Source: Frankiaceae bacterium (GTDB lineage Bacteria > Actinomycetota > Actinomycetes > JAFAQI01). Taken from it: a stretch of DNA of 45,475 nt. The notes under the pieces are model-generated. The model searched no databases, was not told the DNA's origin, and saw only the letters and a program-made list of their open reading frames with translations. The translations under genes were made by a program, and so were the position numbers. Location: NCBI GenBank assembly GCA_019239875.1, contig JAFAZI010000002.1, positions 1 through 45,475 of the forward strand. The letters run 5' to 3'. Shown here piece after piece: positions 5,472-44,987 of the stretch (the first letter of the stretch is position 1; each line of letters starts with the position of its first letter).

Positions 5472-6196
5472 GTGAAGGCAAGCGGACAGCGATCGTCACG
5501 GGCGGTAGCGCGGGCATCGGCTTGGCCTGTGCCGAGGCGCTGGTCGGTCGCGGGTACGACGTGGTGCTCACCGCCCGCGGTGAGGAGCGGCTGCGACGAG
5601 AGGCCGAGCGGATCGGTGCCAGGTACGTCGTGGCGGACGCGGCAGAGCCGGCACAGATGGCCGCGGTGATGGACGCGTGCGACGAGGTGCATCTGCTCGT
5701 TCACTCTGCGGGCGTGCTCAAGGGCTCGTTCGTCCGCCGGCAGTCGATCGAGGATGTCGACGAGGTGTTGCGGGCGAACCTGCGGTCCGTCTTCGTCACC
5801 TGTCATGCCGTCATCCCGAAGATGCCGGTGGGTGGCCGGATCATCCTGATCTCGTCGTCGGCGGGCAAGGAACCGATGAAGGCTCGGACCGCGTACTCCG
5901 CATCCAAAGCGGGCGTCAACGCGTTCGCGCTGGCGATGGCACGGGAGGTCTCGCGGGACGGGATCAACGTCAACGTCGTCATCCCGGCCCCGGTCGAGAC
6001 CGACATGCTGGAAGAAGTCACCTTCGAGATGGTCGCGCTGCAGCCGGAGGACGTCGTGGCTGCCGTCATGTTCCTGGACGGCCTGCACCCGCGGGTCGTC
6101 ATCCCGGAGATCTCGATGCACGCCAACCCAGAAGGTCCGCTCGCCCCGCCTCCACTGTTGCCACCTGCGGCCGCGGCGAAGCAGGGGTCGTTGTGA
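5468..6196 (+). CDS. SDR family oxidoreductase
   Basis: TGGSAGIGLACAEAL nucleotide-binding motif; YSASKAGVNAFALAMARE active site. Confidence 0.9.
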   Translation: MSEGKRTAIVTGGSAGIGLACAEALVGRGYDVVLTARGEERLRREAERIGARYVVADAAEPAQMAAVMDACDEVHLLVHSAGVLKGSFVRRQSIEDVDEVLRANLRSVFVTCHAVIPKMPVGGRIILISSSAGKEPMKARTAYSASKAGVNAFALAMAREVSRDGINVNVVIPAPVETDMLEEVTFEMVALQPEDVVAAVMFLDGLHPRVVIPEISMHANPEGPLAPPPLLPPAAAAKQGSL

Positions 6197-7656
6197 GCGC
6201 GCCGGTCGAAGAGGTTCCGTTCGGCGATCAGCTCGACCGTGTCGCCGCTGCCGATCCCACCGGGATCGGACTCGTCGTGGTGGCGAAGGACGGCACCGAC
6301 CAATCCCTCACGTGGAGCGAGCTGGCGGCCGGCGGCAACCAGTGGTGCCGGACGTTGGAGGCGAACGGCGCCGGGCTGGGCGACCGAGTGGGGATCGCGA
6401 TCCAGAACTCCGTCGAGCTGGTGCTCGCCGCACTCGGCGCGTGGAAGCTCGGCGCCGTACCGATCCCGGTGCGGTGGGACCTCCCGGACTGGGAGCGGCA
6501 ACGTGTGCTCGAGGTCGTGGACGCGGCTGTGGTGGTGGACTCCCACTCGCTCGCCGCGCTGGGCGCGGACGCAGCGGCTCGCTCGGCCGAGGCGGTGCCG
6601 TCGCGGGTGTCGCCGCAGGTCATGGGGATCTGCTCGAGCGGCGCGACCGGCACCCCGAAGGTGATCATCAACACGCGGCCGGGGTTGTGGCAGCCCGCGC
6701 TGTCGGATCCGTTCATGACGAACTGGCGGCCGGTGCAGCGCCCGCAGCGGATCCTCGTGATGGCGCCGATGTACCACACCAACGGGTTCATGACGTTGCA
6801 CTTCCTGCTCGGCGCGGACCCGTTGATCGTGCTCGAGAAGTTCGACGCGGCGCTGGCCGTCGACGTCATCGAGCGGCACCGGATCACGAACTTCACGGCG
6901 ACGCCGACGATGCTGCAGCGGATCGCCGCCGTGCCAGGGATCGAGGACCGGGACCTCTCGAGCATCGACTGGATCCTGCAAGGCGCCGCGGTGATGCCGC
7001 CGACCTTGCTCCGCAAGTGGTTCGAGCTGATCGGGCCGGAGCGGGTCGTCATGGCCTACGGCATGACGGAGCAGCTCGGCCTGACGTCGTTGCGCGGCGA
7101 CGAGTGGCTCACCCACGAGGGCAGTGTCGGCCGCGGCTTCCGCGACACCGAGATCAAGATCCTCGACGAGGATCAGAACGAGGTACCGATCGGCGAGCTT
7201 GGAGACATCTACATGCGCTGGCCAACGACAGGTGCCTACGACTACCGCGGCGGCGCGCCATTGCTGCCGACGACGCCGGACGGCTTCGGTACGGCGGGGG
7301 ACATAGGGCGGCTCGACGCCGATGGCTATCTCTATCTCGCGGACCGCAGGGTCGACATGATCATCACCGGCGGCGCGAACGTGTTCCCGGCCGAGGTGGA
7401 GAGCGCGCTGATCGATCACCCCGGCATCACGGACGTCGTGGTGATCGGACTCAAGGACGAGCAGTGGGGGCGGCGGGTGCACGCCGTCGTCGAGGCAGCC
7501 GACCCCTCCCTCACCGACGCGGACGTCATCGCATTCGCGAAGAGCCGGCTCGCGGCGTACAAGGTGCCGAAGACGGTCGAGTTCATCGACGCGATCCCAC
7601 GTAGCGCCGCGACGAAGGTCAGCCGTGGCGCGATGGTCGAGGCCCGCGGCGGCTGA
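6193..7656 (+). CDS. class I adenylate-forming acyl-CoA ligase
   Basis: CSSGATGTPKVIINTRP, AYGMTEQLG, DRRVDMIITGGANVFPAEVE, PRSAATKVSR; GTG start overlapping previous stop. Confidence 0.9.
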   Translation: MSAPVEEVPFGDQLDRVAAADPTGIGLVVVAKDGTDQSLTWSELAAGGNQWCRTLEANGAGLGDRVGIAIQNSVELVLAALGAWKLGAVPIPVRWDLPDWERQRVLEVVDAAVVVDSHSLAALGADAAARSAEAVPSRVSPQVMGICSSGATGTPKVIINTRPGLWQPALSDPFMTNWRPVQRPQRILVMAPMYHTNGFMTLHFLLGADPLIVLEKFDAALAVDVIERHRITNFTATPTMLQRIAAVPGIEDRDLSSIDWILQGAAVMPPTLLRKWFELIGPERVVMAYGMTEQLGLTSLRGDEWLTHEGSVGRGFRDTEIKILDEDQNEVPIGELGDIYMRWPTTGAYDYRGGAPLLPTTPDGFGTAGDIGRLDADGYLYLADRRVDMIITGGANVFPAEVESALIDHPGITDVVVIGLKDEQWGRRVHAVVEAADPSLTDADVIAFAKSRLAAYKVPKTVEFIDAIPRSAATKVSRGAMVEARGG

Positions 7657-7727
7657 GCGCCGCGCTCCTCAACTCGCCTCCAGGGTGGAAGTCACGTTCT
7701 CAAAAACGCGGTACCGTCATTACCACC

Positions 7728-8405
7728 ATGACGAATCAGCCCGAAGCGGTCCCTGACGCCCAGAGTGGCGAGGTGCCGACCTGGCGTGACCGGGCCGTCG
7801 AGCGCTCGCTGCGGGGCGCGCGCGCCAAGGCGATGTCGCGCTCGGACCGGTTCATCGACGCCGCGATGGAGATCCTGTCCGAGACCGGCCGCACCGACTT
7901 CACCGTGCAAGAGCTGATCGAGCGCTCGAAGACCTCGCTTCGCTCCTTCTACCAGCACTTCTCCGGCAAGGAGGAGCTGCTCCTCGCGCTGTTCGAAGAG
8001 ATCATCACGACGACCAGCGAGGAATGGAGCGAGGAGGTCGAACAGGTCGACGCCCTCACCTCACTGCGGCTCCTGCTCGACCGGATCTACGGCCAGGCGG
8101 CCGGACCCGGCGGCGCGGGGATCAACCGGGCGCTGTCGGTGTTCCACCTCCATCTCGCCGAGTCACGCCCCGCCGACTACGCGCGCGTGCTCGCGCCGTT
8201 GCGAGTGCTGATCCACGAACAGGTCGAGAAGGGGATCGCCGAGAAGACGATTCGGGCCGACCTCGACCCGGACATCCTCGCGACGATCATGTTGCAGACA
8301 TTGGTCGGTGCCGCGCACATGCACGCGCTCGGCGCACAACCGAATGGCAAGCCGATCGACAGCGATCGACTGTGGGACTTCTGCCTGGGAGGGCTCAAAG
8401 CGTGA
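7728..8405 (+). CDS. TetR/AcrR family transcriptional regulator
   Basis: N-terminal HTH FTVQELIERSKTSLRSFYQHFSGKEELLLALFEEI. Confidence 0.9.
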   Translation: MTNQPEAVPDAQSGEVPTWRDRAVERSLRGARAKAMSRSDRFIDAAMEILSETGRTDFTVQELIERSKTSLRSFYQHFSGKEELLLALFEEIITTTSEEWSEEVEQVDALTSLRLLLDRIYGQAAGPGGAGINRALSVFHLHLAESRPADYARVLAPLRVLIHEQVEKGIAEKTIRADLDPDILATIMLQTLVGAAHMHALGAQPNGKPIDSDRLWDFCLGGLKA

Positions 8406-8593
8406 AGATCAGCGTGGACCGCGGGCTGTGCGAGGCGCACGGTGTGTGCATGAGCCTCGACCCCGACACCTTCGATCTGGGCGATGACGACATCCTTGTC
8501 ATCGCGTCGGAGCAGCAGCCGGAGGACAAGCGTGCGGTGCTCGAGCAGGCGGTGATCCGGTGCCCGCGCCAAGCGCTGAGTCTTCAGGGCTGA
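8402..8593 (+). CDS. small ferredoxin (3Fe-4S type, P450 redox-partner-like)
   Basis: VKISVDRGLCEAHGVCMSLDPDTF...CPRQALSL; CxxHGxC...CP pattern; GTGA overlap with TetR stop. Confidence 0.85.
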   Translation: MKISVDRGLCEAHGVCMSLDPDTFDLGDDDILVIASEQQPEDKRAVLEQAVIRCPRQALSLQG

Positions 8594-9003
8594 GCTCGGA
8601 GCACGTTTTCGCCCTGATGGGCATGAGCGAGGTGCCGGTCACTACGGGTGACTACGCGATGCAGATGCCGGTCTCGGACCGCGTGTCAAACAATCGCGGC
8701 GGACTGCAGGGTGGTCTGCTGACCACGTTGGTGGACATCTGCGCGGGCTGCGCGGCGCTGGTCGACCTGCCCGCGGGCCAGACGGCGGCGACCGCGGATC
8801 TGAACCTCCACTTCCTGTCGGCGGTGACGGTCGGCCCCGCGCGCGCGGAGGCGACCGTGGTCCGTCGCGGCAAGCGCCAGATCGTGACGCAGGTCGAGGT
8901 CCACGACGTCGGACGCGACGTCCTCGCGGCGATCGCGACCGCGACGTTCACTGTGCTGGAGCTTCGGGAGGGCCAGCCGGACCGGCGGTCGATCAACGCG
9001 TGA
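8560..9003 (+). CDS. PaaI-family/hotdog-fold thioesterase
   Basis: NNRGGLQGGLLTTLVDICAGCAALVDLPAGQTAATADLNLHFLSAV; exact start uncertain. Confidence 0.75.
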   Translation: MPAPSAESSGLSSEHVFALMGMSEVPVTTGDYAMQMPVSDRVSNNRGGLQGGLLTTLVDICAGCAALVDLPAGQTAATADLNLHFLSAVTVGPARAEATVVRRGKRQIVTQVEVHDVGRDVLAAIATATFTVLELREGQPDRRSINA

Positions 9004-13121: not shown

Positions 13122-13150
13122 TCGCCCACCGGCGTCGCGCGCGTTCTGTC

Positions 13151-13243
13151 GCACTGATGGGCCATGCACCGCCCAAGTCCCGCACTGATGGGCCATGCAC
13201 CACCCAAGTCCCGCACTGATGGGCCATGCGCGGCTCAGGTCGC
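13151..13243. repeat. 31-bp-period tandem repeat, about 3 copies, unit GCACTGATGGGCCATGCACCRCCCAAGTCCC
   Basis: Copies start at 13151, 13182 and 13213; third copy is diverged in its 3' half and runs into the stop of the minus-strand gene. Confidence 0.9.
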
Positions 13244-14068
13244 GGGCTGCTCCAGCAGACGGACCATCGACTCCTGGGCGAAGCTCGCGACCAGGCGGCC
13301 GTCGGCGGTCCAGACGTCGCCGCGCCCGAAGACCCGGCCGCCGGACAGCACAGGGGCGACCTGGTCGACGAGCACCCAGTCGGTCAGCCTGAACGGCTGG
13401 TGGAACCACAGCGAGTGTGTGGTCACCGCAGAGTGGAACGCCCGGCCGGTGTCCGCCTGCGACAGGCCCGCGATCGGCAGCAGCGCCGTACCGATCACCG
13501 TCAAGTCGGTCGAGTGGGCGAGCAGCGCCTGGTGGGTCCACGTCGAGTCGTCAGTGATCGCCTCGGCCGGCACTCGCATCCAGAACTGGAAGGCGGGCGG
13601 GCCGGTGACGGCGCCATCGTTGAGGTCGACGCCGCCGACGACGCGGATTTCCCACGGGATCATGTCGATGACCACGGGTACGGCGTCCTCGGGCGACCCC
13701 GTTGACGGGGGAGTCGGCGGGTTCTCGAGCCCGGCCTCCGGAAGGTGCAACGAGGCAGCCGCGGCACTGATCAATTTGCCGGCCTGGGTCAGCTCGACCC
13801 CCATGGTCGCGAAGGTGCGTCCCACGTGGCGCTCGTCGACCGCGTAGGTGATCGGCATCGAGACATCTCCCTCGCGGGGGAAGTACTGCACGAGGGACTT
13901 CAGCGACTTGTCTCCGGCGTGAGCGCGGAGCGCCTGGATCGTCTGGGCCAGCAGCTGGCCGCCGAAGACCCGGCGGTAGTCGAGGGCGAGGTTCTCACCT
14001 TCGAGCCGACCCCCTTCTGCGGGCCGCAGCGCGAGACACGAGATCAGGTTCGCGAGGTCGAAAGCCAC
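13235..14068 (-). CDS. acyl-CoA thioesterase (TesB-like double hotdog)
   Basis: YRRVFGGQLLAQTIQALRAHA; LSQADTGRAFHSAVTTHSLWFHQPFRLTDWVL. Confidence 0.85.
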   Translation of the reverse strand: MAFDLANLISCLALRPAEGGRLEGENLALDYRRVFGGQLLAQTIQALRAHAGDKSLKSLVQYFPREGDVSMPITYAVDERHVGRTFATMGVELTQAGKLISAAAASLHLPEAGLENPPTPPSTGSPEDAVPVVIDMIPWEIRVVGGVDLNDGAVTGPPAFQFWMRVPAEAITDDSTWTHQALLAHSTDLTVIGTALLPIAGLSQADTGRAFHSAVTTHSLWFHQPFRLTDWVLVDQVAPVLSGGRVFGRGDVWTADGRLVASFAQESMVRLLEQPAT

Positions 14069-16683: not shown

Positions 16684-17888
16684 CCGCCCCGACCCGCGTC
16701 GAGTTCGACCCGTACTCCGACGACTTCTTCCAGCATCCGTACGAGATCTACAAGCGGATGCGCGATGAGGCGCCGGTCTACTACAGCGAGAAGTACGACT
16801 TCTACGCGCTGACCCGGCACGCCGACGTGACGGCGGCGTTCAAGGACTTCGAGACGTACTCGTCAGCCCGCGGCGTCGACCTCGCGATGGTGCAGTCGGG
16901 CCAGGTGCCGCCCGCGCCGCTGGTGATCATGCTCGACCCGCCGGATCACCGCCGGATGCGCAGCTTGGTCAACCGCGTGTTCACGCCGAACGCCGTGAAG
17001 AAGCTCGAGCCGATGGTTCGCGAGGTCATCGGTCACTACCTCGGCCAGCTCGACCCGAACGGGTTCGACGTGGTGGACGACTTCTCGGCGCTGTTCCCCT
17101 GCGAGATCATCACCCGGATGCTCGGCGTCCCCGAGGAGAACCGCCAGCAGATCCGGCTGTGGCTCGACGAGAGCCTGCACCGTGAACCCGGTCAGGTCGG
17201 CACATCGGAGGCGGGCATCGAGGCCGGCGTCGCGAGCGGCCTCATGTACTACGAGCTGATCCAGCAGCGCCGCGCCGAGCCGCAGGACGACATGATCAGC
17301 CGCTTGATCGAGGTCGAGGTCGAGCGCGAGGACGGCACGGTCACGAAGCTCGACGATGTCGAGATCACCGGCTTCGCCAGCCTGCTCGGTGGCGCCGGAG
17401 CGGAAACTGTCACCAAGCTGATCGGGAACGCGGCGGTCGCGTTCCATCAGAACCCCGACCAGTGGCAGATGCTGCTCGACGATCGCGAGCTCATCCCCGC
17501 CGCGGTCGAGGAGCTGCTGCGCTACCAGGCGCCGGCACAGTACGTCGTCCGCTGGTGCACGAAGGACGTCGAGCTGCACGGCACCACGATCCCGGCCAAC
17601 AATGCCGTGTTCGTCATCGCCGGGTCGGCCAACCGTGACGAGCGCGCCTTCCCCGATCCTGACAAGTTCGACATCCTGCGCCCGCGGGACCAGTCGATCC
17701 ACGTCGGCCTCGGCTACGGCATTCACAGCTGCCTCGGAGCGGCACTGGCCCGCATGGAGAGTCGGATCGCACTCGAGATGATGTTGGACTTCATGCCGAA
17801 GTTCGAGGTCGACATGGCGGGCTGCAAGCGCGTCGCGATGACGAACGTGGCTGGTTACAAGCACATCCCCGCGCGGGTCCTGTCATGA
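16680..17888 (+). CDS. cytochrome P450
   Basis: Heme loop GLGYGIHSCLGAALARMESRIALEMML; I-helix LLGGAGAETVTKLIG; LLRYQAP (ExxR region). Confidence 0.95.
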   Translation: MTAPTRVEFDPYSDDFFQHPYEIYKRMRDEAPVYYSEKYDFYALTRHADVTAAFKDFETYSSARGVDLAMVQSGQVPPAPLVIMLDPPDHRRMRSLVNRVFTPNAVKKLEPMVREVIGHYLGQLDPNGFDVVDDFSALFPCEIITRMLGVPEENRQQIRLWLDESLHREPGQVGTSEAGIEAGVASGLMYYELIQQRRAEPQDDMISRLIEVEVEREDGTVTKLDDVEITGFASLLGGAGAETVTKLIGNAAVAFHQNPDQWQMLLDDRELIPAAVEELLRYQAPAQYVVRWCTKDVELHGTTIPANNAVFVIAGSANRDERAFPDPDKFDILRPRDQSIHVGLGYGIHSCLGAALARMESRIALEMMLDFMPKFEVDMAGCKRVAMTNVAGYKHIPARVLS

Positions 17889-26953: not shown

Positions 26954-26980
26954 GCGCTCCGGAACGGCACCTATAGTCTG
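26954..26980 (-). repeat. cassette-boundary site, leftmost, reverse orientation
   Basis: Reverse complement reads CAGACTATAGGTGCCGTTCCGGAGCGC. Confidence 0.85.
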
Positions 26981-27006
26981 ACGGGTCGTTCGCCGAGGAT
27001 CACGGC

Positions 27007-27198
27007 TCAGGAGAAGTACACCGTCCGCACAATCCACACCAACCACACGAGGGCTGCGGACCACACGAATATGCGCCCACACGACCAAAGTACTTTGTAT
27101 GACCTCGATCCGGAACGACCTGTCGTCCAGTCATAGCCACGCGGCTTCGGCCCGTACAGGTATACCCACTCGGCGATGAATTCCAGAAACCACCCCAC
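27007..27198 (-). CDS. small membrane protein (left-array cassette)
   Basis: 63 aa, SCGRIFVWSAALVWLVWIVRTVYFS TM segment; stop just before the site at 26954-26980. Confidence 0.5.
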   Translation of the reverse strand: MGWFLEFIAEWVYLYGPKPRGYDWTTGRSGSRSYKVLWSCGRIFVWSAALVWLVWIVRTVYFS

Positions 27199-27260
27199 GA
27201 AGCAATTTCGGCAATCTCAGCTCGGATCTTGACGCGCGCTGCGAACCCTGAAACCTATGC

Positions 27261-27280
27261 GCCGCGAGCGGCACCTATCC
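27261..27280 (-). repeat. cassette-boundary site, reverse orientation
   Basis: Reverse complement GGATAGGTGCCGCTCGCGGC, matching GTAGGTGCCGCTCGCGGC at 37926. Confidence 0.8.
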
Positions 27281-27577
27281 GGCGGGTTCGCGTCGGGGCT
27301 TCACGTGCCGCCACGCACGATGGCGGGTCTTTTGGGAGAACTGCTTGTCCTGAGAGACGACCCGAAGTGCCTCGCCGATCGTGTCGCTCCAGGTGTTCGC
27401 GTCGATCCAGTCCAAGGCGTGCCCGACCCAGTAGTCCGACCATGGGCGGCAGACGACCTCTTCAACTAGGCGGACCGCCGTCGCGTCATCGAGACCGCTC
27501 TCGGACCTGGGCCGCTCTAGCAACGGCAGCAGCGCCCGAATGTCGTCCACCGATGCACGGTAACGCTGGGGCGACAC
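27275..27577 (-). CDS. hypothetical protein (left-array cassette)
   Basis: 100 aa ORF, stop overlaps the site at 27261-27280. Confidence 0.55.
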   Translation of the reverse strand: MSPQRYRASVDDIRALLPLLERPRSESGLDDATAVRLVEEVVCRPWSDYWVGHALDWIDANTWSDTIGEALRVVSQDKQFSQKTRHRAWRHVKPRREPAG

Positions 27578-27580
27578 TTG

Positions 27581-27602
27581 CGAGCGGCACCTATAGTCCG
27601 TT
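27581..27602 (-). repeat. cassette-boundary site, reverse orientation
   Basis: Reverse complement CGGACTATAGGTGCCGCTCG. Confidence 0.85.
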
Positions 27603-27730: not shown

Positions 27731-28063
27731 TTACAAGCCGTCTACCTCGAGGAAGCGGCCCGCTCTGCGACGCACGATCTCGTGCGGGTCCTGAGCCAAC
27801 TCGGCCCTGATCGCCGGATCCAGCCGGCGTTGGGCGGCAACGGCCGCACGCACTCTCCAATCTGGATGGCGAGCAAGCCGCGCCACGATGTCACGGGGCG
27901 AACGCTTTGCGTGGGCCACCCAGTTGGCCATGTCGGGATGACGCTCCAGGACGGCGGCCCACGCCTCGTCTGGCATCTCCATCCATGCAGCCCGCTGGTG
28001 CTCCTCGGGCAAAACGCTACGACGGAGGCGCACCCACTCGTCCGCCATCTCATCCGCATTCAC
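27731..28063 (-). CDS. HEAT-repeat-like protein (left-array cassette)
   Basis: IVARLARHPDWRVRAAVAAQRRLDPAIRAELAQDPHEIVRRRAG; GTG start at 28063 or ATG at 28048. Confidence 0.6.
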   Translation of the reverse strand: MNADEMADEWVRLRRSVLPEEHQRAAWMEMPDEAWAAVLERHPDMANWVAHAKRSPRDIVARLARHPDWRVRAAVAAQRRLDPAIRAELAQDPHEIVRRRAGRFLEVDGL

Positions 28064-28109: not shown

Positions 28110-28124
28110 CGCCGGTTAGGTCCG
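28110..28124 (+). repeat. integrase-flanking inverted repeat, left copy (attI-like candidate)
   Basis: CGCCGGTTAGGTCCG, exact reverse complement of 29092-29106. Confidence 0.85.
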
Positions 28125-28187
28125 CGGGGTGGACGATCTTCGGCGCGCCGGGAGGCAGGCTCTCGGCCTGACTGCGGAGGCCCCACG

Positions 28188-29090
28188 ATGACAACGACTG
28201 ACCTGTCCCTGACCACCAGCGACGCGAGCCGATGGGCCGTCGCGGGCTTCTTGGCCCGCTATCGGGAGCCGACCCGATCTGCGTACACGTTGGACCTGCG
28301 ATCGTTCCTGGCGTGGTGCCTGAGCAATAACCGGGACATGCTGCAGGTCAGCCGCGCGGAGCTCGAACTGTTCCTCCGTGACATGGAAGGCCGCGGCTAC
28401 GCGGTCGCGACGATCGCCCGACGATTTGGCACTGTCGCAACGTTCTATAAGTACGCGGTGATTGACGGCCTGATCTCCCACAACCCTGCGGATGCCGTCA
28501 CGCGACCTCGTGTCTCCTGGGAGGGTCAGCGGCGCACCGTCTTGCATCCGCTCGAGTTCGCCGCCATGCTGACGGCCGCGCGAACGGCCGGACCGGTCGA
28601 GCATGCGCTCGTCGCCCTCCTGGGCATGCTCGGACTGCGCGTGTCCGAAGCCTGCAACGCCGACGTCACCGACCTGCGTTACGAGTCCGGCTACGAGCTG
28701 CTGCACATCATCGGCAAAGGCGCGAAGCCCGCCGACATCCCGCTGCCGATCCCGGTGCTGCGTGCGGTCCGCCAGGTCATCGGCGAGCGCACCACAGGCC
28801 CGCTGTTGCGCACTCGCACGGGACGACGCCTCGACCGGCCCGCGGCGGCGCGGATCGTCGCCAGGCTCGCCAAGCACGCCGGGATCAACCACGCGATCAG
28901 TCCTCACGGGCTACGTCGCACCTTTTGCACCAGTGGCCTGATCGCCGGCGTCGCGATCCGCGACATGCAGCACGCGATGCGGCACAGCGACCCCCGCACC
29001 ACGCTCCGCTACGACATGGCCAAGACCAACCTCGACCGCCACGCCTCCCACGCGGTCGCCGCCTACCTCGCCGGCATGAGCACCGGTTGA
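28188..29090 (+). CDS. XerC/XerD-like tyrosine recombinase/integrase
   Basis: Catalytic pattern R (GMLGLRVSEA), K (IIGKGAK), HxxR (SPHGLRRTF), H (MRHSDPRTT), Y (LRYDMAK); N-terminal core-binding domain ARYREPTRSAYTLDLRSFLAWC. Confidence 0.95.
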   Translation: MTTTDLSLTTSDASRWAVAGFLARYREPTRSAYTLDLRSFLAWCLSNNRDMLQVSRAELELFLRDMEGRGYAVATIARRFGTVATFYKYAVIDGLISHNPADAVTRPRVSWEGQRRTVLHPLEFAAMLTAARTAGPVEHALVALLGMLGLRVSEACNADVTDLRYESGYELLHIIGKGAKPADIPLPIPVLRAVRQVIGERTTGPLLRTRTGRRLDRPAAARIVARLAKHAGINHAISPHGLRRTFCTSGLIAGVAIRDMQHAMRHSDPRTTLRYDMAKTNLDRHASHAVAAYLAGMSTG

Positions 29091-29091
29091 C

Positions 29092-29106
29092 CGGACCTAA
29101 CCGGCG
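29092..29106 (-). repeat. integrase-flanking inverted repeat, right copy (attI-like candidate)
   Basis: CGGACCTAACCGGCG, exact reverse complement of 28110-28124; begins 2 nt after integrase stop. Confidence 0.85.
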
Positions 29107-29142
29107 CTACACGACGCCTCGATTGCGGCCGATGATGGCTGC

Positions 29143-29373
29143 ATGAATGTCTGGCGGCGCCTCCTCATGGCGCTCCGCTGGTGGTTTGGATTGACCTACT
29201 TGCTGGGGGGCGCTGGCTGCATGGTGGCCGCGATCGTTTGGCTGGCAACTGGCAATTGGGCTGGCGTGTACCTGGCAGGAGGTGCAGTCTCGCTCCTCGC
29301 CTTAGCCTGGCTGATTCATCCGTGGGGTGTGCGCCGTCAGAATCTCGATCAAACTGCTCGCCCTGCTCGGTAG
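29143..29373 (+). CDS. small membrane protein (cassette)
   Basis: 76 aa, two hydrophobic segments WWFGLTYLLGGAGCMVAAIVWLATGNWAGVYLAGGAVSLLALAWLI. Confidence 0.6.
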   Translation: MNVWRRLLMALRWWFGLTYLLGGAGCMVAAIVWLATGNWAGVYLAGGAVSLLALAWLIHPWGVRRQNLDQTARPAR

Positions 29374-29379
29374 CGCCAG

Positions 29380-29400
29380 CAGTGATGCCGCTCGCGCACT
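29380..29400 (+). repeat. cassette-boundary site
   Basis: CAGTGATGCCGCTCGCGCAC, partially palindromic. Confidence 0.6.
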
Positions 29401-29421
29401 TCTCCGACCTAGGGTTGCGGC

Positions 29422-29922
29422 GTGTCCTCCGACATTGTCTGCGCGTCTTGTGGCCGCAGCGTCGATGCACACAATCAGCACTACCGATTCACCTTGCCTG
29501 ACCCGGTGCTGGACACCCCCGAGCGTGAGCACGCCGAAGGCACATGGATGAGCGACGCCGATGCAAACCGTTCCGTCCTGTTGCAGGTCCCGAACGTTGG
29601 GCCCTTTGTCCGTGCACTTCTTCCGGTGAAGCTGACCGGGGGCTTCGCGCTCACGTTTGGCGTGTGGCTGGCTGTACACCCGGAAGACCTTCAGCGAGCT
29701 GCGCGAGTGTGGCACCAGCCTGAGTACTCAGATCTCGTGTTGGACGGCTGGCTTGCGAATGCACTGCCCGTGTGGGGTCTTCTCGCGTGTCCCGTGCGGG
29801 CTGTCGTTCGCGTCATGGAACACACGCCCTATTGCTCAGAAAGTGCAAATGCCAAGATGAACTCCGTCCTGACAGACGAATTGCCTCACGACCTCATCTT
29901 GAGCGCGGTCACCACACGTTAA
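29422..29922 (+). CDS. DUF2199-like protein (cassette)
   Basis: CASCGRSVDAHNQHYRFTLPDPV; VKLTGGFALTFGVWLAVHPEDLQRAARVW; stop TAA lies in the following site. Confidence 0.65.
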   Translation: MSSDIVCASCGRSVDAHNQHYRFTLPDPVLDTPEREHAEGTWMSDADANRSVLLQVPNVGPFVRALLPVKLTGGFALTFGVWLAVHPEDLQRAARVWHQPEYSDLVLDGWLANALPVWGLLACPVRAVVRVMEHTPYCSESANAKMNSVLTDELPHDLILSAVTTR

Positions 29923-29970
29923 TGCCGTTCCTGAACGGTCCCAGCGTTAGGGCGCGGCTGCCTAACGCTT
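29919..29970 (+). repeat. cassette-boundary site with 9-bp inverted repeat
   Basis: TTAATGCCGTTCCTGAACGGTCCC, then AGCGTTAGG-N9-CCTAACGCT. Confidence 0.8.
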
Positions 29971-30016
29971 CAGCTCTGCGTTTGGCAGACGCCAGGGCGG
30001 TAGGGACCATTGGCGG

Positions 30017-30454
30017 ATGCATCGAATGTGGGCAGCTGGGGCGGCACTCTGTCTGGCGGTCGGAGGGTGCTCCCCGGCGTTTGACAAGACCTCAACGGTG
30101 CCGACACTCTCGTGCGCCTCGCATGCAACCGAAGCGACGTCGCAAGGGCCGACTACCCGACCAGGCAGGGACTTCGAGCCTCTTACTAAACAGCAGCACT
30201 CGGTTCCGTGGAAGTTAGAAACGATCCGCGAGGGCGGTTGCGTCCTCGTGGTCAGTTACAGCGACGAATGTGACGCCGCATCACGTGTACAGGTCCGCGA
30301 GGGGCCGACTGATGTACTGATTCGCGCGGTAATTCTTCGTAGCACCGGTGATTTGTGCGCATCGTCCCGTCTACGGTTCGTCCTATTGCCCGTACCGCTC
30401 GGTGATCGTCACCTCGTCCACGCCCGCGTCGCGCCGTTATTCAACAACCAATAG
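30017..30454 (+). CDS. lipoprotein (cassette)
   Basis: MHRMWAAGAALCLAVGGCSPAF signal peptide with lipobox. Confidence 0.65.
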   Translation: MHRMWAAGAALCLAVGGCSPAFDKTSTVPTLSCASHATEATSQGPTTRPGRDFEPLTKQQHSVPWKLETIREGGCVLVVSYSDECDAASRVQVREGPTDVLIRAVILRSTGDLCASSRLRFVLLPVPLGDRHLVHARVAPLFNNQ

Positions 30455-30474
30455 CGTCCGAAGCTGCGCGGATG

Positions 30475-30556
30475 AGAAGTGATGCCGTTCTGCGACGAGC
30501 ACGTGAGCCCGCGCGCCAGCGCGCAGACTATTGGTGCCGGTAGCGGACCACTGGCT
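30475..30556 (+). repeat. cassette-boundary site, long form
   Basis: AAGTGATGCCGTTCTGCGACGAGCACGTGAGCCCGCGCGCCAGCGCGCAGACTATTGGTGCCGGTAGCGGACC. Confidence 0.9.
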
Positions 30557-34850: not shown

Positions 34851-34915
34851 TCCCTGCCGTTCTGCGACGGGCACCTAGCCCGCGCGCCAGCGCGCAAACT
34901 ATAGATGCCGTTTTC
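34851..34915 (+). repeat. cassette-boundary site, long form
   Basis: CTGCCGTTCTGCGACGGGCACCTAGCCCGCGCGCCAGCGCGCAAACTATAGATGCCG. Confidence 0.9.
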
Positions 34916-36175: not shown

Positions 36176-36643
36176 GTGGCTGCGACGGACGACGTATTCC
36201 TGACCCACCAGCAGCCGGTGTGGCGTTCCCGCGCCGACTTCATCGTCATGGCGCCCCTTGCCGAGCATCACACCTACGAGCAGATTTGGGCTCGACAGGA
36301 AGCCGACGATCTGTTCGAGATCTGCTGCATCCCCTTCTTCGCGCACAACCTGTCGCTAGGTGATCTTGTACGAACCGAGATGCAGGGTGAACGCTCCTAC
36401 TTGATCAGCGACGTCGTGCGGCCCTCGGGCCGATCGACCTTCCGCGTCTGGCTCGGGAAGAGCCCAGACGATCGACTGGACGTGGAGGCGGAGTTCATAG
36501 CCATGGGCGCACTGACTGAGTGGTCGTCCGAGCACCTGCTTGCGCTGGACGTGCCCGACGAACCGCAGGCCCAGGTCCTCGCGACCAGACTGGCAGCGGG
36601 CGAGCAGAGCGGTCGCTGGTTGTACGAGACCGGCCGACTGTAA
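36176..36643 (+). CDS. DUF4265-like protein (cassette)
   Basis: VWRSRADFIVMAPLAEHHTYEQIWARQEADDLFEICCIPFFAHNLSLGDLV; VVRPSGRSTFRVWLG; TAA stop inside following site. Confidence 0.75.
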   Translation: MAATDDVFLTHQQPVWRSRADFIVMAPLAEHHTYEQIWARQEADDLFEICCIPFFAHNLSLGDLVRTEMQGERSYLISDVVRPSGRSTFRVWLGKSPDDRLDVEAEFIAMGALTEWSSEHLLALDVPDEPQAQVLATRLAAGEQSGRWLYETGRL

Positions 36644-36662
36644 GTGCCGCTCCAATCAAGCG
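36636..36662 (+). repeat. cassette-boundary site
   Basis: GACTGTAAGTGCCGCTCCAATCAAGC. Confidence 0.8.
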
Positions 36663-37321
36663 GGTGGTGCCGTCTTTGACCCGACCCACTCCCTCAGGAG
36701 ATCGCGCTGTTTGGGCCAGGAGTCGACTTTCGATGGTCGCTCGAGCAGCTGCGACATCACCTGATTGAGTTGGGGCGAAGGGCCCTCGTCGGCGAGGAGC
36801 ACGACCATCGCTATCTCGAAATGGATCGACCAATCCGAGGTCCGCTTGATCTCACCGAGATCGCCCGCGTCCACCGTCGCGAGGATCGCTTCCCGATTTA
36901 ACAGTCTGACAACCTCCCGCAATTGCCCTTGTGCTTCCAGTCGTATCACCACGTCTCGAGCAGCAGCTTCTGCCGACCGCTCGTCGATGACGGTCCACGC
37001 CCCGCCGGTGTCGAGGCCAGGCGAGGGCTGGAGCCGCGCCCGCCACAGCCCGTCCTGCTCACTGACCGACTTGTCGGCGGGTCGAGACAGTCGAGCTGCG
37101 TTCCATTCCCGCCACGGTCGGGGAGCCACGGCTAGGTTGACGTAAAAACGCGCGCTTTGGGCCGTGTTCCACTGCGAGAGTTGGACGTTGATCACCGCCA
37201 CGTCATCTCGCTCGTTGATGAGCCGCCACGTTGGCCACGTCCCCTTGAACCCGGTGGCTCTGATGACCGGCACGAGGTGCTTCGTAACCGCCTTCTTGGT
37301 CGAATCCTTCGCGCCCGCCAT
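36656..37321 (-). CDS. DUF4304-like protein (cassette)
   Basis: VPVIRATGFKGTWPTWRLINERDDVAVINVQLSQWNTAQSARFYVNLAVAPRPW; ATG at 37321. Confidence 0.7.
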   Translation of the reverse strand: MAGAKDSTKKAVTKHLVPVIRATGFKGTWPTWRLINERDDVAVINVQLSQWNTAQSARFYVNLAVAPRPWREWNAARLSRPADKSVSEQDGLWRARLQPSPGLDTGGAWTVIDERSAEAAARDVVIRLEAQGQLREVVRLLNREAILATVDAGDLGEIKRTSDWSIHFEIAMVVLLADEGPSPQLNQVMSQLLERPSKVDSWPKQRDLLREWVGSKTAPPA

Positions 37322-37366
37322 GAGCCAGGAGGTTATAGCTCGCTGAAGGAGACTCCTATCAGGCGG

Positions 37367-37398
37367 AGCGTCCGACGAATAGTGCCGTTCTTCTACGC
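37367..37398 (+). repeat. cassette-boundary site
   Basis: GCGTCCGACGAATAGTGCCGTTCTTC. Confidence 0.75.
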
Positions 37399-37422
37399 AG
37401 CCGACCCCGTTATCGTGCGAGC

Positions 37423-37929
37423 GTGACCGGCGAACCATGTCCGCGATGCGGCATGAAACCTGTCGAGTTCAGCGATAGCCGCGGGCACGCATTGACGATT
37501 TTCGACGTCATATTCGGGCTCGGGGCTCTGCTCCTTCTGCTCGCCCTCGGGACAAATGTTCTGGTCGCAGGAGTAGTTGCCGTGCTCGTCGGCATCGCAT
37601 TTCGGGCGGTCACTAACCACTCCTACTACCGCTGGACACGCACGGCGGACGGACGGGCCTTCACGTGGAGCAAGGGGCGCGTCATCCGAACTATCCCGAA
37701 CGACGGTGTCGTGGAGGTAAGCGAGGGTCGCTTGACCGCGATGGGTCCGTGCGTGTTCGTACGTGTCGATGCGCAGTCAGCCCATCTGCTGACGAGCCGT
37801 GCGCAGCGCCGTACCCAACAGTTCGTCATCTTGAAACGGCGCCTCAATGATCTGCCTAGTCTCCGGAAGCACCTCGGCCACCTCGGCCAGCAGAAATACG
37901 AATCAAGTCAGCCACTTAGCGGACTGTAG
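37423..37929 (+). CDS. membrane protein with N-terminal Zn-ribbon and PH-like C-terminus (cassette)
   Basis: MTGEPCPRCGMKP; FDVIFGLGALLLLLALGTNVLVAGVVAVLVG; TAG stop inside following site. Confidence 0.6.
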   Translation: MTGEPCPRCGMKPVEFSDSRGHALTIFDVIFGLGALLLLLALGTNVLVAGVVAVLVGIAFRAVTNHSYYRWTRTADGRAFTWSKGRVIRTIPNDGVVEVSEGRLTAMGPCVFVRVDAQSAHLLTSRAQRRTQQFVILKRRLNDLPSLRKHLGHLGQQKYESSQPLSGL

Positions 37930-41313: not shown

Positions 41314-41395
41314 CGATAGGTGCCGTTCTGCAACGGGCACCTAGCCCGCGCGCCAGCGCGCAGACTATAGGTGAGCCGGTAGCGTCCGATGTAGC
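41314..41395 (+). repeat. cassette-boundary site, long form
   Basis: GATAGGTGCCGTTCTGCAACGGGCACCTAGCCCGCGCGCCAGCGCGCAGACTATAGGTGAGCCGGTAGCGTCCGATG. Confidence 0.92.
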
Positions 41396-44228: not shown

Positions 44229-44987
44229 ATGGCGGCAGCGTCGCGAGGCGGCGGGTTCATCAGGGCCGTCCGTATTGATGTGCCAGCGACCGCGGCCAGC
44301 CAATGGCCGTTCACGATTCCGTCGATCGCCTCCTTTGGCCGTCGCAGCTTCGACCCGGCCGTGACGTATCTGGTCGGCGAGAACGGCAGCGGCAAGTCGA
44401 CTCTTGTTGAGGCGTTGGCAGTCGCGGTTGGCCTCAACGCCGAGGGCGGTACGCGCAACATGGGATTCTCGACCGCTGACTCTCACACCGCTTTGACTAA
44501 GCATCTAGTGGTGGAGCGCCGAGGACGGCCGCGCACGGACTTTTTCCTGCGGGCTGAAAGCTTCTTCAACGTGGCGTCACATATCGACCGGCTCGACGAG
44601 GATCCGCTTGGTGGACCAAAGATTCGCGAGGCCTACGGCGGGCAGTCGTTGCACACGCGCTCGCATGGCGAGTCATTCATCGCAACGTTGACTCACCGGC
44701 TCGGTCCAGGCGGGCTGTACTTCCTCGACGAACCGGAATCAGCCCTGTCGTTCCACGGGTGCCTCACGCTTCTGCGCGTGATCAACGACCTCACCCGGGA
44801 GGGATCACAATTCGTAATCGCTACCCACAGCCCGATCGTTCTGGCCAGTCCTGGTGCGCTTATCTACTCGCTCGACGAGGACGGAATCAAGACCACGCAC
44901 TACGACGAAGCCCCACCCGTGATCAACAACCGTGAGTTCTTACGCTCCCCTGAGCGATTCCTCCGGCATCTTTTCGCGGACGATTGA
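44229..44987 (+). CDS. AAA/ABC-type single-gene ATPase (COG3910-like) (cassette)
   Basis: Walker A VGENGSGKSTLVEAL; SHGESFIATL; Walker B GGLYFLDEPESALS; FVIATHSPIVLASPGA. Confidence 0.88.
   Translation: MAAASRGGGFIRAVRIDVPATAASQWPFTIPSIASFGRRSFDPAVTYLVGENGSGKSTLVEALAVAVGLNAEGGTRNMGFSTADSHTALTKHLVVERRGRPRTDFFLRAESFFNVASHIDRLDEDPLGGPKIREAYGGQSLHTRSHGESFIATLTHRLGPGGLYFLDEPESALSFHGCLTLLRVINDLTREGSQFVIATHSPIVLASPGALIYSLDEDGIKTTHYDEAPPVINNREFLRSPERFLRHLFADD

Follow-up and report, generated by a model that had tools for sequence, protein, structure and literature searches.

A tyrosine recombinase gene between two outward-pointing cassette arrays in a Frankiaceae bacterium: a putative double-ended, integron-like platform

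In the 45,475-nt stretch of a Frankiaceae contig analysed here (the window), a tyrosine recombinase gene is bracketed by an exact 15-bp inverted repeat and lies between two cassette arrays that point away from it. With a probability of about 0.55, we read this locus as an integron-like, double-ended platform that relies on a tyrosine recombinase of non-IntI type and in which the two 15-mers would be outward-facing attI-like sites for cassette insertion. Observed directly are the inverted repeat, cassettes that form units with cores at their boundaries, a switch of core polarity at the integrase and the recurrence of the arrangement in relatives. The double-ended outward layout itself is well supported, and the assignment of the 15-mers as a pair of attI-like sites is an inference of moderate confidence. 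In window coordinates, the features are:

26965..26976, minus strand: outermost left core, CTATAGGTGCCG, matrix score 21.5
26980..27285, minus strand: left cassette, also present in contig C51 at 89.5% identity, with homology that stops near the cores
27269..27280, minus strand: left-array core, GGATAGGTGCCG, matrix score 16.6
27275..27577, minus strand: ORF of a left cassette (100 aa), whose end falls at the core at 27269-27280
27585..27596, minus strand: left-array core, CTATAGGTGCCG, matrix score 17.1
27742..28059, minus strand: first left cassette ORF, 105 aa, no Pfam match
28110..28124, minus strand: left 15-mer, read outward CGGACCTAACCGGCG and then TTCTGG, bordering the left array on its inner side; proposed attI-like site on the left
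28188..29090 (stop included), plus strand: tyrosine recombinase, 300 aa, Pfam PF00589 at 1e-21
29092..29106, plus strand: right 15-mer, read outward CGGACCTAACCGGCG and then CTACAC, bordering the right array on its inner side; proposed attI-like site on the right
29107..29386, plus strand: first right cassette, with an ORF at 29143-29373 and core TGCCG at 29386
29387..29923, plus strand: second right cassette, with a DUF2199 gene at 29422-29922 and the core at 29923
29924..30483, plus strand: third right cassette, with an ORF at 30017-30454 and a 90.3% identical copy in contig C51
30525..45000, plus strand: remaining right array with 22 plus-strand cores, TGCCG at 30535, 31547, 33145, 33742, 34855, 34906, 35217, 35426, 36645, 37383, 37931, 38694, 39448, 40021, 40314, 40902, 41321, 41945, 42679, 43715, 44181 and 44992
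36176-36643: DUF4265 gene (Pfam) in the right array
36656-37438, minus strand: DUF4304 gene (Pfam) in the right array
44229-44987: AAA_21 ATPase gene (Pfam) in the right array

Right of the integrase, about 16 kb is partitioned by 25 cores of the TAGGTGCCG-NT type on the plus strand, and the resulting units measure 51-1598 bp. The left array is short, with three strong cores, all on the minus strand and scoring 16.6-21.5. The core matrix was trained only on the right-side plus cores, which had been chosen by eye beforehand, and the scan covered the whole window; the strand of the right-side cores is thus no independent test, and the left-side sites are an independent one. Since every strong left site is on the minus strand and the right side has no minus site of similar strength, its best minus-strand match scoring 10.4, polarity switches at the integrase. 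Moreover, plus-strand ORF stops abut 12 of the 25 right cores, against 2.8 +/- 1.5 in the control, and none of 5000 shifts reached as high a count. The cores are conserved in sequence and fold weakly: the mean folding z of the sites is about -0.4 versus about 0 in controls, and 18-22% of sites versus 3-7% of controls fold below a z of -1.5; strong attC-like folding is not seen. In 296 genomes of the class, the core 12-mer is, outside its own family, no commoner than its reversed control, and it is therefore no class-wide marker. Few cores occur in L162-L164, mostly close to contig ends; in L162, from a same-family genome, two strong cores on opposite strands, 7788(+) and 7837(-), lie 49 nt apart near such an end.

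The cassettes behave as units bounded by these cores. Aligned to their copies in contig C51 of the source genome, cassettes lose homology inside the cores or within about 20-30 nt of them; specifically, the third right cassette and its copy part within the core GAAGTG/ATGCCG. Because one left and one right cassette are both copied in C51, the two arms carry the same kind of cassette. The gene content of the array is mixed, comprising DUF2199, DUF4265, DUF4304 and the AAA_21 ATPase together with many ORFs that have no Pfam match. Contigs C51 (L048) and C200 (L049) of the source genome contain additional cassette clusters with cores of this type, and no integrase was seen next to either. A mini-cassette of about 50 bp that consists of a site only (TGCCGTTCTGCGACGGGCACCTAGCCCGCGCGCCAGCGCGCAGACTATAGG) is present repeatedly in arrays and once alone elsewhere in the genome; its copies lie at 34855-34906, 30483-30535 and 41321-41370 of the window, at 16707-16773 and 17708-17774 of L048, and at 9657-9723 of L166. 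Beyond the left array, a 31-bp unit that begins CGCACTGATGGGCCATGCACC is present three times in tandem at 13150-13249 of the window.

An earlier, sequence-only reading of this DNA had reported the exact inverted pair around the integrase and placed its right copy 2 nt past the integrase stop codon, and both points are borne out: CGCCGGTTAGGTCCG occupies 28110-28124, its exact reverse complement occupies 29092-29106, and the left copy ends 63 nt upstream of the integrase ATG. These are the only perfect copies of the 15-mer in the window and in the 4.15-Mb genome, where two further places match it with one mismatch; the window holds no other exact inverted pair of at least 14 bp within 1.2 kb. 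The length of the repeat alone is unremarkable, since an exact 15-bp inverted pair within 1.2 kb arises somewhere in 18% of shuffled windows; when the two flanks themselves were shuffled, 2 of 20,000 trials gave an equally long pair there. Paired with the gene's own 3' end, the right 15-mer forms AGCACCGGTT-N10-AACCGGCGCT, with arms complementary at 9 of 10 positions, an arrangement that looks like a two-armed recombinase site; the left copy has the shared half only.

The same reading had also likened the 15-mer to the cassette core, a resemblance that the matrix scores rule out: the copies score -7.2 to 1.8, against 11.5-23.8 for the training cores. Its remark that GTTAGGT fits the integron core GTTRRRY is literally correct and carries no weight, because GTTRRRY is absent from the cassette cores of the array. 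Its suggestion of paired attI-like sites survives as the best reading, on grounds other than those proposed, namely the flip in core polarity, the position at the inner borders and the layout recurring around homologues; against it stand the missing core-matrix match, a GTTRRRY motif foreign to the cores of this system and the exact pair being found in no homologue examined. Measured against the refuting condition that this reading had set, repeats lacking beside homologous integrases, the exact repeat fails.

By its sequence, the enzyme is classed as a tyrosine recombinase of neither IntI nor Xer type. In an alignment with IntI1 of R388 and with XerC and XerD of E. coli, the catalytic residues are in place (R in LGLRVSEA, K in GKGAKP, HGLRR, MRHSD and Y in LRYDMA) and the extra stretch of IntI1 is missing. 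Its NCBIfam scores lie far below the cut-offs of XerD (115.8 bits vs 329.6), XerC (111 bits vs 335) and IntI TIGR02249 (61 bits vs 265), and its weak similarity to DNA invertases reflects the shared fold. A maximum-likelihood tree, in which IntI1 is a single long branch, places the recombinase in an actinobacterial clade that also includes Arthrobacter phage integrases; the separation of this clade from Xer and IntI has 100/99 support. In the same family, a relative at E <= 1e-30 was found in only 1 of 11 other genomes, and it is remote (G010, 36% identity); the source genome has two further XerC/D-like matches, and no relatives were found on viral contigs.

The outward two-sided layout recurs around homologues of 45-64% identity in three other genomes. 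In L098 (54% identity), eight minus cores lie left and two plus cores right of the integrase, and the integrase segment is flanked by two inverted sites identical at 34 of 40 positions. In L110 (45%), minus cores on the left (6034-8844) are followed by plus cores on the right up to 11564, with two minus matches beyond. In L031, a Frankiales MAG (64%), one minus core stands upstream and five plus cores, which define its matrix, stand downstream, and a core-like copy begins 10 nt past the integrase stop; as these cores (CCGGCCTTCTTCGC) are unlike those of the window, the core sequence varies among relatives while the layout is kept. In L053 and L099, plus-strand cores lie left of the integrase, so the arrangement there is not outward, and around many distant homologues a recognisable array is absent.

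The positions of the 15-mer sites appear partly conserved in the closest relatives, by p-values that are per site and uncorrected for the number of comparisons: at the right site, L101 matches at 12 of 14 positions (p~0.002) and L042/L043 at 10 of 14 (p~0.03-0.05), and at a comparable place for the left site, L043 matches at 12 of 16 (p~0.0035). In L044, L098 and L110, and at the left site of L031, similarity to the motif is at chance level. When motifs were sought de novo in the surroundings of all homologues, codon periodicity dominated the output and nothing usable emerged. Near integrase homologues of 44-46% identity, in L051 (14814-15383) and L052 (5479-6085 and 6768-6870; both in integrase-oriented coordinates), 34-bp repeats that each contain a TGCCG core follow one another head to tail, and these runs may be rows of empty cassette sites. 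Near a 43% homologue in the Propionibacteriaceae MAG L033, a site of about 70 bp with a different core is present three times (9809, 13024 and 15019), probably as another array of the kind seen in the window.

If the 15-mers are indeed attI-like, the recombinase would act on the cores and recombine that of a circular cassette with one of the 15-mers, which would serve as acceptors, and new cassettes would enter beside the integrase gene, on either side. With one outward acceptor per side, one array would grow leftward and one rightward; by analogy, each 15-mer would hold the position that attI has in an integron, once per side. Recombination would take place mainly on double-stranded, sequence-recognised sites, an expectation based on an enzyme without the IntI insertion, on the sequence conservation of the cores and on sites that fold only weakly better than controls.

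Some of the same data could be accommodated by a real two-sided array beside an incidental exact repeat, in which case the first cassette cores themselves, or different sequences close to the ends of the integrase, would be the true acceptors. The lack of a core score for the 15-mer, the exact pair found in no homologue examined and the 18% of shuffled windows with some 15-bp inverted pair all suit this explanation, which we consider unlikely though worth keeping in sight: a repeat of such length falls in exactly these flanks in 2 of 20,000 shuffles, both 15-mers lie on the integrase-facing edge of an array, and L101, L042 and L043 show partial conservation. That the inverted copies instead serve to invert the integrase segment, switching the array faced by the gene or by its promoter, is improbable. 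Identical sites in inverted orientation around a tyrosine recombinase are what inversion calls for, and the L098 integrase also lies between inverted sites (34/40 identical), but no inverted form was seen, and the orientation does not discriminate, because a pair of outward-facing acceptors would have the same inverted arrangement.

Slightly less credible again is a role of the 15-mers as regulatory operators or as part of the end of the integrase transcript. The surroundings of the right copy are palindromic and the left copy lies shortly upstream of the start codon, but neither a terminator-like T run nor a sigma-70-like promoter was found at the repeats, and an identical 15-mer past the stop codon would make an odd operator. 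Lastly, short perfect repeats around one gene recall the terminal inverted repeats of a recombinase-carrying transposon, an interpretation that we regard as very improbable, given that the bases just outside the copies are not duplicated (CCAGAA and CTACAC), the genome has no other exact copy, the flanks are cassettes, and the enzyme is a tyrosine recombinase and not a DDE transposase; a DDE transposon proper would be expected to show both a target-site duplication and further copies, and neither was found.

Compared with known systems, the putative double-ended platform shares with integrons (IntI/attI/attC) a tyrosine recombinase next to arrayed short cassettes, each holding roughly one gene and bounded by a repeated core, as well as integrase-less clusters elsewhere in the genome, solo sites and gene ends that abut cores. 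IntI-type integrases carry an additional insertion in the catalytic domain, the I2 helix (PMC7790495, PMC8138268), which the window recombinase lacks, and it scores 61 of the required 265 bits; the core is TAGGTGCCG-NT where integrons have GTTRRRY; the sites fold weakly, in contrast to the conserved folded structure of attC; and arrays run outward on both sides instead of forming a single array of one polarity. Since the IntI-type enzyme, the GTTRRRY core, the folded attC and the single polarity are all missing, the platform is not filed as an integron. XerC and XerD are the nearest curated recombinase families by sequence and share the simple domain layout with no arm-binding domain, whereas the window recombinase falls under their cut-offs and outside the Xer clade and has multiple cassette sites where the Xer system has one dif. 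The Arthrobacter phages Bridgette and Anekin (L151, L152) have two tyrosine integrases each, one of which is about 47% identical to the window recombinase and belongs to its clade but, as far as the phage sequence was read, has no cassette array beside it.

Integrons are reported to be nearly absent from Actinobacteria, and IntegronFinder 2.0 detects no complete integron there (PMC9024848). Our search of the open-access literature, with subscription papers and preprints outside its scope, returned no description of a system like the present one. Even odds seem appropriate for the broader proposal that Actinomycetota have their own, independently evolved form of cassette capture, present in several families and missed by integron finders, that relies on a non-IntI recombinase, an inverted outward pair of sites, two divergent arrays and sites recognised by sequence rather than by structure. 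If this is true, gene-cassette capture would have arisen more than once, a hidden pool of mobile genes would be added, and it would become possible to test directly whether such a system needs the folded single-strand route of IntI.
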